The notes below the pieces were generated by a model, which made no database searches, was not told where the DNA came from, and worked only from the letters and a program-made list of their open reading frames with translations. A DNA stretch of 64,000 bases from Pirellula sp. (lineage in GTDB: Bacteria > Planctomycetota > Planctomycetia > Pirellulales > Pirellulaceae): NCBI GenBank assembly GCA_021300155.1, contig JAJTID010000100.1:1-64000 (forward strand), given 5' to 3'. Below are positions 9,582-13,606 of this stretch, in pieces (positions within the stretch are counted from its first letter, which is position 1; each line of letters begins with the position of its first letter). The translations under genes were made by a program, and so were the position numbers.

Positions 9582-10454
9582 CTAAGAGTATGCTGCGTAT
9601 AGCAGAAGTACTACCAACTGAACCAAGAAGCAATTGGCACCTAAAAAATCGCCAGTAACTCCGCCCACTCGGCACATGACGTATCGCCCAAACAAAAAGC
9701 TTACAAACACACTAGCAACTGCGATTTGAATGCCCAGCCAAAGCGCTTCGCCAAAATGGTATGACATTTGATCCAAAGAAACATAACACGTTTCTTGGAT
9801 GAAGAACAGTTGGCGCCCCCCCACAAACGCCGCCCCGCATACGAACCAAGCCGCAATCGCCACGGCTCCACTCCATAGAAAGATAGCCCAAGTGGTCTGG
9901 CTGCCCACATCTCGCACCATAGTGTGGCGATCTTCGATGGGTGGCAGCAACACCATCATCCACAAGATTGCCCAACGACCCGTCATGGCCGAAATTGGAA
10001 TGGCATACCATCCGATCTGCGGTCCGATCTCTGCGAGTAGTAGCACACGCAAACCGATCCCCAGCACCAATGCCAATACGCCGAAGGTGCCATGACGCGA
10101 ATCTTTCAAGATTTCTAAAACGCGTTCCTTTGTCCAACCACCTCCCAACGCATCCGTGGCATCGGCGAATGCATCTTCATGAAACGCACCGGTTAGCCAA
10201 CTCTCCGCAGCAATCGCAATGCATGCAGCAACAACAGTAGACCAGACAAGCGAAAGCGACGAAAACACAACACTTGTAAAACACCCGATCATTAATCCGA
10301 CGAGGGGAAAGTAACGGACAGAATTCTGCAATGCCAATCGGTGATCAAACTCTTCACTTGGAAGTAATGGTGAAACTGGAATGCGAGTGAGGAACTGAAC
10401 TGCGGCCAAGAACGCTATCCAGTTTGTGATTCCGTTGCTCTCTTTACTTGACAT
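9582..10454 (-). CDS. cobS: Adenosylcobinamide-GDP ribazoletransferase (cobalamin synthase)
   Basis: A 290-residue polytopic inner-membrane enzyme that joins adenosylcobinamide-GDP with alpha-ribazole in the last steps of cobalamin assembly. Family features seen: the early block FLAAVQFLTRIPV, the signature ESWLTGAFHEDAFADATDALGGGW with its Asp/His cluster (metal and substrate site), KERVLEILKDSRHGTFGVLALVLG, and multiple membrane helices. The ATG at 10454 overlaps the last 11 bases of glnE, so the two are probably translated together. An upstream TTG at 10463 is less likely. No other cobalamin gene is in the window, so the gene sits apart from a cob cluster. It converges on the PhoB-type gene with only 30 bases between the stops. 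Confidence 0.92.
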   Translation of the reverse strand: MSSKESNGITNWIAFLAAVQFLTRIPVSPLLPSEEFDHRLALQNSVRYFPLVGLMIGCFTSVVFSSLSLVWSTVVAACIAIAAESWLTGAFHEDAFADATDALGGGWTKERVLEILKDSRHGTFGVLALVLGIGLRVLLLAEIGPQIGWYAIPISAMTGRWAILWMMVLLPPIEDRHTMVRDVGSQTTWAIFLWSGAVAIAAWFVCGAAFVGGRQLFFIQETCYVSLDQMSYHFGEALWLGIQIAVASVFVSFLFGRYVMCRVGGVTGDFLGANCFLVQLVVLLLYAAYS

Positions 10455-13400
10455 ATTGATCAAAAAGTTTTCGATTCATCGACCGGAATCGATCGCACTC
10501 GGACTCTAGCTCTTTTCCCCCAGCAATATGACGAATGTACGCTAATCGTTCTAGCTCGATCGTCTCCTGTGGCAAATCGTGCCTAGCGGCTGTGTTCATC
10601 AATCGCAGTCCAGATTCAACCCCGCGAAGATATTGGTAACTCTCGATGATGAACTTCGATTCCGTATCCTTGAGACTCCCAATTGTGGCAAGGTAACTCG
10701 CCAGCATGGATGTCCCCTTCGCTCGATGGAACGAACCTTTGTTTGCGTTCTGCAAAACAAGCGTTCGGCAAAGCCACTCGATATCAATAGTACCGCCGCA
10801 TCCTCTCTTCAGGTTGCGATGGTGCGCGGTAGACTCGAGTGCGTTGCGTTGGCTACGCAACCATTGCGTATCACTCTCTAGCCAGGGAAGCATCTCCAAG
10901 GATATTTCGACTTGCGATTCGGCGATTTCGGCAAATTCGTGCTCTCCGCAAAAAACTCGAAAATCGACTAGTTCGATACGCTTCTCTGGCGATAGACTTC
11001 CGCTTTCGATCGCTTGAAGAAATGATTGAAGACTCCAGGAGAGAAAATTGGAACGTCCATTCCCAAGGCTCCAAATCTTGGTCTCATAGAGTTTTCCGAA
11101 TCGCCCAACGCGATTCAGCGATTGTGATACGCGCTGAGCGAGCTGTTGAAAAAAATCTTGATTGGATGATGCGATATGGCGACGAGAAATCCCCACGGGT
11201 GCCGTTTCACCGTCGGATTCGTAGAGACACAGAAGCCCCATATCGCTGTGATAGTTTGGTTCTCTAGCTCCATATTTTCCCACGAATGCAAACACGAATC
11301 GACAGGTTCCCGTCGTCTCGGTGCGTGGAACACCGAGCTTCTTAATAAGATTGTGATATTCGTTCTCGATAACTTGATTGACACATACATCCGCGATATC
11401 GGATAACGCGCGATGTGTATCGGCAATACTCTCTTTTCCAAGAACTTCACGGACACCCACGTTTAGGTGCATGGCATTCTTAAAGGACGCGAGAATCAGC
11501 GTGATGTCTTCCGCCCCGCGGCAAAGTTCATAAATCATCGTCTCAAGTTGATGTTCATCCGGCAAGCGATTGAGCATCAATGAATCCAGCAGCTCGTCGA
11601 TCATACCAGGATTGTTAACTAACAAAGAAACCAAATAGGGGCTTGCACCACAAAGTCGAACATAGAGATCCATACTCGGTTCGTGTCGGCTGAACAACTC
11701 CCAAAGGACTCCTTTCCCACCGAGCGATCGACTCGTTTTGGCCAAATTCTCCAAGGTCAAATCAGGAGCCGGAGTCTGGCTTATCTTATTCAACAATTGC
11801 GGCGCAATCGCGGCGAGAAAATGCCGACAGCGTCGCGTCGACAACATCTTGATCTCTTCGCGCGCGAGTTCCATCAGATGTTGATAGGCAGCGTGTGTCC
11901 GTTGAAATCGGTGCTTCGCCAGCAAATCATCTACCCAAACGGGCGAGGGATTCGGATCCAAAATCAAATCGGATTCATCGGCTACGTTTTCTTCACCAGA
12001 AAAAACCTCTGCCTGAAGGTGTTGCTGGATCTGTCGGACTTTGCTTATCGCATCCATAAGCTGCGACACATCCATATCGACGCAACCGTTTACCCTTTTG
12101 CCTCTCTCCGCACCACCTAGAAAAAGGGATACCGATTGCTGTGATTGCATGGCAGCCGTCTGAAATCGACCGAGAGCCGTTGCCAAGATACCTCGTTCCG
12201 ATTCGGTCAAACAACCTTCTTTCGCCAACGCATCAATGGCGCGTAACGTATTGCCTTCTCGGACCGCGAGGGAATCACCACCGTGCAGTAACTGAAGATA
12301 GCCAACAAAAAATTCCAACTCCGTACGCCAACGCACCACCTGATCTTCGTCAATTCGATCGACATTTCCGCCAATCGCCCCCCCTTTGTCATCTCTCCGA
12401 TGAATCCGTCGATAGGCAGCACCTAAACTAGCAACGTCGGATCCAGAGAGATTGCGTTGGAAAAGCAAGGTTGGTACTTCTTCAAGAATACTCTGACTAA
12501 TCGATGCGTCACCGAAAACATGCCGCGCTTTGAGAAGCGCGAACTTATGCTGGGTGCGACCGGCATTCTCAACATATTGAAGCCAACGACGGCCTTCGAG
12601 AACCATTCTCGTATCAACGCGAAAATCTCCTTCGCTAGAGAATGGCTGCTTGACCTCGTATGCAAATCCACTTGGATGCGAAAGCCATTTCACCACACGC
12701 GTCGCAAACCGGTCAAACTCCTCTTGCAGTTTCTCTTGATCAACGGCCGACGCCATGAGTGAACCAGACTCTCGGAAAAAGAGAAGCTCGAGAGGCTGGC
12801 AAAAATCCAACTCGCACCCTCCGTAAGACCCCAACCCGACGACGGCTATTCGTTTCTCCAAATCGTGTGGCGTGATCTTTCGACTGGCAGATATTCTTGA
12901 AGCAACTTGGATGGCTGCAGCGAGAGACGCTTGAGCAATCCAGGTTAACTGGTGTGAGACTTCAAACCATGGCATGCCGTGCAAACAGAATGCGCATAAA
13001 ACCCGGAGTGTTTCGCGACGTCGGAACGTACGCATCGTCGCAAGCAAATGCGTTTCATCCTCGAGTCCCCCGAGCTCTGCAACGATAACATCAGACATGT
13101 GTTCTGCAGGCACCGACTGCCCTGCCGTTAAGCGGAGCCAGTCGAAACTGTCAGGATCCTCGACAAGCCACTCGACCGAAGGAGACTGCAGAGAAAGAAT
13201 GCGCATCAAGACTGGCAGTGAATCTAAGTCTCGCTCCAAAAAGGCGATGAAGCTTCCAGGGCTTCGCGTCCTTTCGACAAATCGAAATAGTCTGTCGACG
13301 CCTACTTCTAGCTCCGGATACTTGGTCAACAACGTGCCAACTTGAGAAAGAAAGTCATGAATGGGGCCCCAATGCGGAGGCTGATTCCACCAGTCTTCAA

Positions 13401-13482
13401 TGACTTTTCGTGTCGACGCTTTGAGATTCAAAGCATGTGTTCGAATCCACTCATCAACGGTATCGGCGATCTTTCCACTCAT
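10444..13482 (-). CDS. glnE: GlnE-family glutamine synthetase adenylyltransferase with degraded active-site motifs
   Basis: About 1012 residues from the ATG at 13482 (a TTG at 13518 is also in frame). The architecture follows GlnE: N-terminal nucleotidyltransferase-like domain, linker, second nucleotidyltransferase-like domain and helical tail. Family blocks include RRRETLRVLCAFCLHGMPW, FVERTRSPGSFIAFLERDLDSLPVLMRIL and GGTIDIEWLCRTLVLQN. The enzyme normally adenylylates and deadenylylates glutamine synthetase. Both catalytic motifs are off consensus: residues 217-236 read GLGSYGGCELDFCQPLELLF where GGxELxxSSDxDLIF is expected, and residues 735-750 read GKYGAREPNYHSDMGLL, with Gly749 in place of the second Asp of the DxD pair. 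Activity of either half is therefore doubtful. No glnA or glnB lies in the window. Confidence 0.85.
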   Translation of the reverse strand: MSGKIADTVDEWIRTHALNLKASTRKVIEDWWNQPPHWGPIHDFLSQVGTLLTKYPELEVGVDRLFRFVERTRSPGSFIAFLERDLDSLPVLMRILSLQSPSVEWLVEDPDSFDWLRLTAGQSVPAEHMSDVIVAELGGLEDETHLLATMRTFRRRETLRVLCAFCLHGMPWFEVSHQLTWIAQASLAAAIQVASRISASRKITPHDLEKRIAVVGLGSYGGCELDFCQPLELLFFRESGSLMASAVDQEKLQEEFDRFATRVVKWLSHPSGFAYEVKQPFSSEGDFRVDTRMVLEGRRWLQYVENAGRTQHKFALLKARHVFGDASISQSILEEVPTLLFQRNLSGSDVASLGAAYRRIHRRDDKGGAIGGNVDRIDEDQVVRWRTELEFFVGYLQLLHGGDSLAVREGNTLRAIDALAKEGCLTESERGILATALGRFQTAAMQSQQSVSLFLGGAERGKRVNGCVDMDVSQLMDAISKVRQIQQHLQAEVFSGEENVADESDLILDPNPSPVWVDDLLAKHRFQRTHAAYQHLMELAREEIKMLSTRRCRHFLAAIAPQLLNKISQTPAPDLTLENLAKTSRSLGGKGVLWELFSRHEPSMDLYVRLCGASPYLVSLLVNNPGMIDELLDSLMLNRLPDEHQLETMIYELCRGAEDITLILASFKNAMHLNVGVREVLGKESIADTHRALSDIADVCVNQVIENEYHNLIKKLGVPRTETTGTCRFVFAFVGKYGAREPNYHSDMGLLCLYESDGETAPVGISRRHIASSNQDFFQQLAQRVSQSLNRVGRFGKLYETKIWSLGNGRSNFLSWSLQSFLQAIESGSLSPEKRIELVDFRVFCGEHEFAEIAESQVEISLEMLPWLESDTQWLRSQRNALESTAHHRNLKRGCGGTIDIEWLCRTLVLQNANKGSFHRAKGTSMLASYLATIGSLKDTESKFIIESYQYLRGVESGLRLMNTAARHDLPQETIELERLAYIRHIAGGKELESECDRFRSMNRKLFDQYVK

Positions 13483-13606
13483 CAGGCATAGTCTACACGA
13501 AAGGACGTGTTCACCCAACCGAGGGCCTTGTAAATCCGAACCGTCACAAAGACTTTTCGCCTATCAAATCTTTGCCTGACAATCGAGTTCTAGAAATTCG
13601 AACTGA

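Follow-up and report, generated by a model that had tools for sequence, protein, structure and literature searches.

The glnE gene of Pirellula sp. contig JAJTID010000100.1 (GenBank assembly GCA_021300155.1; positions 1 to 64,000 of the forward strand, the whole 64,000-nucleotide stretch being called the window here) encodes a GlnE homologue that has lost catalytic acids from both of its nucleotidyltransferase domains, and both metal triads of the protein were gone in all 27 genomes of the genus. Textbooks present the GlnD-PII-GlnE-GlnA cascade as a bicyclic control circuit. In this genus, both GlnE and a shortened relative of the type I glutamine synthetase GlnA, here termed the remnant, appear to have lost their active sites yet are still maintained by selection, an observation suggesting that two partners in metabolic control have been turned into a device that works without catalysis. 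On the sequence evidence, GlnE and the GlnA remnant are probably retained pseudoenzymes, with GlnE now working by binding and with glutamine coming from a type II synthetase. Loss of both activities is well supported by the motifs described below, from which we infer that the proteins are inactive.

Metal triads and constraint in GlnE

The open frame of glnE, read from a TTG start, encodes 1024 amino acids; an alternative ATG at 13480-13482, corresponding to residue 13, would give 1012. With two nucleotidyltransferase domains (PF03710, 172.2 bits in two stretches) and a GlnD_UR_UTase domain (PF08335, 34.7 bits), the protein belongs to the GlnE family by homology. The sole matches in a PDB sequence search were 3k7d and 1v4a, both GlnE domains of the E. 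coli type. An AlphaFold2 model (pLDDT of 80.8 and pTM of 0.61, with the C-terminal half scoring above the N-terminal half) had the same two structures as its top PDB matches in Foldseek, namely, the AMPylation domain 3k7d (E = 2.9e-16) and the deAMPylation domain 1v4a (E = 2.4e-15). The NCBIfam equivalog cut-offs were missed, at 243.8 versus 487 for NF008292, 201.4 versus 724 for NF010706, and 168.6 versus 625 for NF010707. In GlnE, the N-domain is responsible for deAMPylation and the C-domain for AMPylation (PMC12409994). The features of the window gene are as follows.

10444..13518, minus strand: GlnE homologue with the catalytic acids gone from both nucleotidyltransferase domains (Pfam, Foldseek)
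12781..12831, minus strand: N-domain (deAMPylation) metal motif GSYGGCELDFCQPLELL, residues 230-246, replacing GKLGGxELNYSSDIDL (alignment)
12640..12666, minus strand: N-domain third-ligand region FAYEVKQPF, with K290 at the Asp of VDLRLRP (alignment)
11359..11838, minus strand: helical stretch, residues 561-720, among the best-conserved parts of GlnE in the genus (block conservation, model)
11230..11280, minus strand: C-domain (AMPylation) motif GKYGAREPNYHSDMGLL, residues 747-763 (alignment)
11065..11097, minus strand: C-domain third-ligand region GKLYETKIWSL, with K814 at the third Asp and W816 at the first Arg of RLRP (alignment)

An initial annotation of the window had described an N-domain with CQPLEL where SDxDL is expected and a C-domain with SDMGL, in which Gly replaces the second Asp. 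Both descriptions were confirmed. P242 and E244 occupy the SDxDL positions of the N-domain; in the C-domain, D759 is retained and the second Asp is G761 (given as Gly749 in the annotation, which counted from the ATG rather than the TTG). The third acidic ligand, a loss missed at that time, is also gone from both domains, with the N-domain reading YEVKQP versus the canonical YRVDLRLRP and the C-domain reading YETKIW versus YEIDPRLRP. The metal triads are P, E, K in the N-domain and D, G, K in the C-domain, compared to a canonical D, D, D.

GlnE was compared among 60 genomes (27 of the genus, including the window's own and comprising the full yield of a genus search open to 150 genomes, and 33 relatives) together with 65 loci of named genome records, which are partly redundant in that some come from one genome. 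None of the genus genomes has D, D, D in the N-domain (26 of 27 were readable at the first two positions and all 27 at the third), the alignment of this domain being uncertain in the most drifted members. Among the 33 relatives outside the genus, 28 have D/D/D in the C-domain, and all 26 of these that could be read in the N-domain have it there too. The N-domain is altered in five relatives (G027, G028, G031, G036, and G038), and in G038 the C-domain is altered as well (D to N). Since these five were excluded from the 28-genome canonical set used for comparison below, that set is conserved partly by choice.

A sequencing error in the window had been named as a possible source of the missing acids. 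This was ruled out because G024 (L004), whose GlnE is 92% identical to the window protein and stands apart from the 39-51% identity of the others over the main match, shows the same losses, as do 25 further genus genomes; L069 is apparently the same contig as L004 and adds no witness. The loss of both triads is real and extends beyond one genome, and ordinary error is excluded. Substitution by other acids was likewise rejected for the C-domain, because the third position is basic in all 27 genomes (K in 18, H in 5, and R in 4). In the N-domain, the second position is E in 10 of 27 and D in 5, the first is D in just 2, and a full triad occurs in none.

The alignment of planctomycete GlnE, proposed in the initial annotation to date the loss, showed it to be genus-wide. 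In a FastTree phylogeny (1 of 125 sequences omitted as too short), the genus shares one branch with the Rhodopirellula/Rubripirellula clade, G028, G031, and L109, on which all N-domains are altered; the tree places one loss of the C-domain triad at the root of the genus and an independent one in L109. The order of these events is tentative because the branches are long and a single tree method was used.

The ratio of nonsynonymous to synonymous substitution rates (dN/dS; Nei-Gojobori, 10 chosen close pairs per gene) was 0.046-0.211 for genus GlnE in nine pairs, the tenth being saturated. Since these values are well under 1, the proposal that GlnE is maintained was borne out, and the altered role suggested along with it is made more plausible by the sequences. 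Change around the C-domain motif is patterned. The D759 position is Asp in 27/27 genus genomes, with most of the surrounding block retained, and the residues of EPNYHSD that were scored (E, N, Y, S, and D) are present in 27/27; the second acid has become Ser in 16, Thr in 6 (Ser/Thr in 22/27), Gly in 2, Asn in 2, and Pro in 1, and the first arginine of RLRP is aromatic throughout (W in 25, F in 1, and Y in 1). Across the helical stretch, conservation in successive 40-residue blocks was 0.70, 0.85, 0.72, and 0.73 in the genus and 0.85, 0.81, 0.74, and 0.68 in the canonical relatives, the block of residues 601-640 (0.85) being as conserved as its counterpart in the 28 relatives (0.81); block 961-1000 is kept equally well (0.76 versus 0.67). 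In the majority of the remaining blocks, conservation is lower in the genus than in the canonical relatives. The fold alignment used 45 of 58 prepared GlnE sequences.

With a lost catalytic motif, a retained fold, and purifying selection, genus GlnE is probably a pseudoenzyme as the term is defined in excerpts of PMC10211241. Judged from these patterns, its losses are not random decay, and it is from the constraint that a non-catalytic function would follow. The alternative that GlnE and the remnant are degenerating leftovers of a pathway already lost, and have simply not been deleted yet, would account for the N-domain, which is far less conserved within the genus, and for one subclade with shorter GlnE frames (691-985 amino acids between stops, with some truncated where a contig ends), but it is very improbable given that no GlnE match row contains an internal stop, that dN/dS is 0.05-0.21, and that the proteins have diverged deeply (39-51% identity) while acquiring new genus-specific consensus residues.

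At the end of glnE, a CobS gene (window 9582-10463) overlaps it; a search of 17 genus genomes recovered CobS in 6, in one case as a fragment.

Glutamine synthetases, GlnD, and PII

Canonical type I glutamine synthetase (GSI) was absent from all 27 genus genomes in a PF00120 search, in which the top genus match scored 84.6 bits; full GSI of 426-460 bits was present in 31 of the 33 relatives outside the genus, with the GSI of G038 split across two contigs and none detected by PF00120 in G036. The GlnA remnant was found in 25 of the 27 genus genomes, including that of the window, where it lies on a different contig from glnE (G000:C105, L154:7405-8556). When this copy was used as the query, canonical GSI was matched at 133-158 bits and the ~300-bit glutamine synthetase (GS) paralogue loci were unmatched at E = 1e-3. 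A profile of the remnants (A1, built from 23 of the 25, the other two being cut at contig ends) gave 290-319 bits for full GSI versus 28-43 for the paralogues. Its top profile match was 3ng0 (E = 7.9e-62), with homology to GlnA over almost the full length, and the remnant N-terminus MKPKAVLAYCRE resembles that of the relatives' GSI (MKPKEVLALCRE in L039). The 25 remnants were monophyletic (support of 1.0) in a tree whose outgroup consisted of two of four fetched GS paralogue loci and one from another search.

The metal-ligand positions of GS are E129, E131, E212, E220, H269, and E357, in Salmonella GS numbering. E129, E131, E212, and H269 are substituted in all 24 remnants that reach these columns. 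The FDGSS motif is lost, and the Tyr397 column, the adenylylation site, contains Tyr in 0/24 readable copies. The segment following the DVF motif is 12-22 residues long in the remnant (24 measured) versus 28-35 in GSI (27 of 31 measured); in H. pylori, the C-terminal segment of GS forms the contact between two hexamer rings, according to excerpts of PMC6076278. The remnant dN/dS was 0.072-0.206 in 10 pairs, the lowest value coming from a near-saturated pair. Taken from its sequence, then, the remnant is a protein under purifying selection that is without the full GSI active site, the target Tyr, or the full C-terminal thong. The absence of canonical GSI and of the adenylylation-site Tyr, the latter singled out for checking in the initial annotation, both lend support to its suspicion that glutamine synthetase may not be adenylylated here. 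In five genus genomes the remnant is paired with a gene for an AMP-binding (adenylate-forming) enzyme, which in the window genome (L154:8547-10199) overlaps the remnant's end; this neighbor is confined to the level of a subclade.

For its glutamine the genus presumably relies on a type II enzyme (GSII), which was found in 23 of 27 genomes. Its frame is 337 amino acids long (417 in G009), and the four genomes in which it was not seen (G003, G004, G012, and G026) are 76-83% complete. The enzyme of the window genome matches glutamine synthetases of type II length in the PDB (4bax, E = 9.4e-98). The motifs EQE, EVxxGQWE[FY]Q, GMH, and RGASIRIP are intact in 21/21 genus copies read, and YLEDRRP is exact in just 13 of these. 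A GSIIB of the bacterial type was already known in Planctomycetes, as stated in excerpts of PMC2978018.

GlnD, whose metal motif is of the same kind as that of GlnE, retains SD[IL]DL in 20/20 genus copies read, and the PII gene adjoining glnD in the window genome keeps the T-loop YRGTEY. Going by these motifs, the upper cycle seems to have been preserved, whereas the lower cycle seems to be defunct. The window genome contains four PII-like genes (L035-L038), only one of which adjoins glnD; the neighbors of the others, read by eye, are a P-type ATPase fragment, an ABC ATPase, and an unassigned open reading frame. A putative PII gene, also assigned by eye, lies beside glnE in five relatives outside the genus (G030, G051, G053, G057, and G059; e.g., L187:916-1287).

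The Tyr of the adenylylation loop is present in 30 of 31 canonical GSI sequences. Two further genomes with an altered C-domain triad outside the genus have a GSI without this Tyr, namely, G069/L109 (NTHEL) and G038 (NINEM); the GSI of G069, read by eye, keeps several motifs and has lost the flap Glu. This planctomycete (L109, JABAAE010000010.1, and L197) is altered in both domains of GlnE in addition to its GSI losses, and it seemingly shows the same process at a point further back.

Explanations for the retained proteins

In the explanation that we consider probable, the C-domain of GlnE would have lost the attachment of AMP to glutamine synthetase and the N-domain its removal. GlnA, for its part, would be missing the greater part of the active site, the tyrosine that GlnE modifies, and some of the tail that stacks the rings, and glutamine synthesis would have passed to the type II enzyme. 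The helical core of GlnE, together with its C-domain, would then engage a binding partner, for which the GlnA remnant and/or PII are the simplest candidates. The remodeled pocket of the C-domain, with Asp, Ser/Thr, Trp, and a basic residue at a metal-ligand position, might bind a ligand without catalysis. The new role, the pairing of the remnants, PII control, and the ligand pocket are steps that we infer from the sequences. The most specific form, in which pseudo-GlnE with its metal-free pocket binds pseudo-GlnA and signals the state of PII or of a ligand to a new target as a non-catalytic signaling pair, is put forward tentatively, as a possibility.

Rates of evolution give at most a hint that GlnE and the remnant act together. 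Branch-rate covariation between the two had a partial r of 0.74 when GlnD and GSII served as controls (17 of 27 genomes), and with four controls and a controls-only tree (15 of 27 genomes, 27 branches) their residual r of 0.69 was the highest of 15 pairs. Several observations weigh against such a pairing or against the explanation as a whole. With four controls the covariation is not specific, the unrelated pairs GlnD-TPR and GSII-XseA having residual r values of 0.62 and 0.59 and GSII-XseA surpassing GlnE-remnant in full partial r (0.67 versus 0.51). In G006, the sole single-contig genus genome, glnE and the remnant gene are ~3 Mb apart, and neighbor clustering, in which many frames overlapped the target gene, identified no genus-wide shared neighbor of either. 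Because G003 (77% complete) and G013 (93% complete) show no remnant, GlnE may not need it. The remnant often keeps E220 (20/25) and E357 (18/25), and 10 of 25 copies carry a Tyr elsewhere in the poorly alignable loop region. The GSI of G032 (L189) has Phe for the adenylylation Tyr, yet its GlnE is canonical. Finally, 11 Rhodopirellula/Rubripirellula genomes have an intact GlnE C-domain triad (12/12 sequences) and neither GSI nor remnant; a type II synthetase was found in 9 of the 11, a completeness figure being at hand for G036 alone.

L070-L076, L079, L103, L106, L128, L169 (G036, G060-G068, G070): Rhodopirellula/Rubripirellula-type GlnE without GSI

Since this clade keeps the C-domain triad without GSI or remnant, a role for GlnE without GlnA is possible. 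The retained job of GlnE might accordingly be independent of the remnant, being directed at a second target linked to PII, already present in the ancestor of this Pirellulaceae branch, that is still AMPylated in Rhodopirellula and merely bound in the genus, with the remnant repurposed separately. The 11 genomes just described, the two genus genomes in which GlnE occurs without a detected remnant, and the lack of specificity in the rate covariation all favor this alternative, but it leaves unexplained the constraint on the remnant in 25 of 27 genomes, and we regard it as rather doubtful. We know of no second PII-linked target of GlnE.

It is less likely still that the C-domain remains enzymatic with changed chemistry, with migrated or substitute residues allowing it to transfer or hydrolyze nucleotides on a new substrate, in the manner of SelO. 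The invariance of D759 and of the scored EPNYHSD residues and the always basic third position could be read in this way, and SelO, a pseudokinase that performs AMPylation with a kinase fold, provides a precedent (excerpts of PMC12409994). In 27/27 genus genomes, however, a single one of the three acidic ligands is left and neither arginine of RLRP persists; the Trp of WER and the K/R of ALCKAR, each of which is present in 28/28 canonical C-domains, are missing from all 27 as well.

Relation to known systems and implications

Genus GlnE shares with E. coli GlnE (C-domain 3k7d, N-domain 1v4a) the two homologous nucleotidyltransferase domains and the fold and differs from it in having neither metal triad, no canonical GSI substrate, and scores below the NCBIfam equivalog cut-offs. 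The remnant likewise shares homology almost end to end and a similar N-terminus with type I GlnA, from which it differs in four of six metal ligands, FDGSS, the Tyr397 column, and a shorter C-terminal segment. Lengsin (GLULD1, PDB 2j9i), a vertebrate protein, is related to glutamine synthetase but does not have synthetase activity. It parallels the remnant in being GS derived with a nonsynthetase role and matched profile A1 weakly (E = 1.2e-4), but its origin is different, and in the genus the loss of catalytic residues extends to the modifying enzyme. Pseudoenzymes in general, pseudokinases included, similarly combine a missing catalytic motif with retained fold and constraint, whereas here both a modifier and its substrate enzyme show loss. 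Among open-licence PMC papers, searched mostly at the title and abstract level, no description of joint GlnE/GlnA loss was found.

For planctomycete annotation, these results mean that the presence of glnE does not equate to an adenylylated glutamine synthetase. A lower cycle that is without catalysis but still has its proteins would reveal what GlnE and GlnA do apart from their chemistry, and the genus would thus be a direct test case for non-catalytic roles of both.

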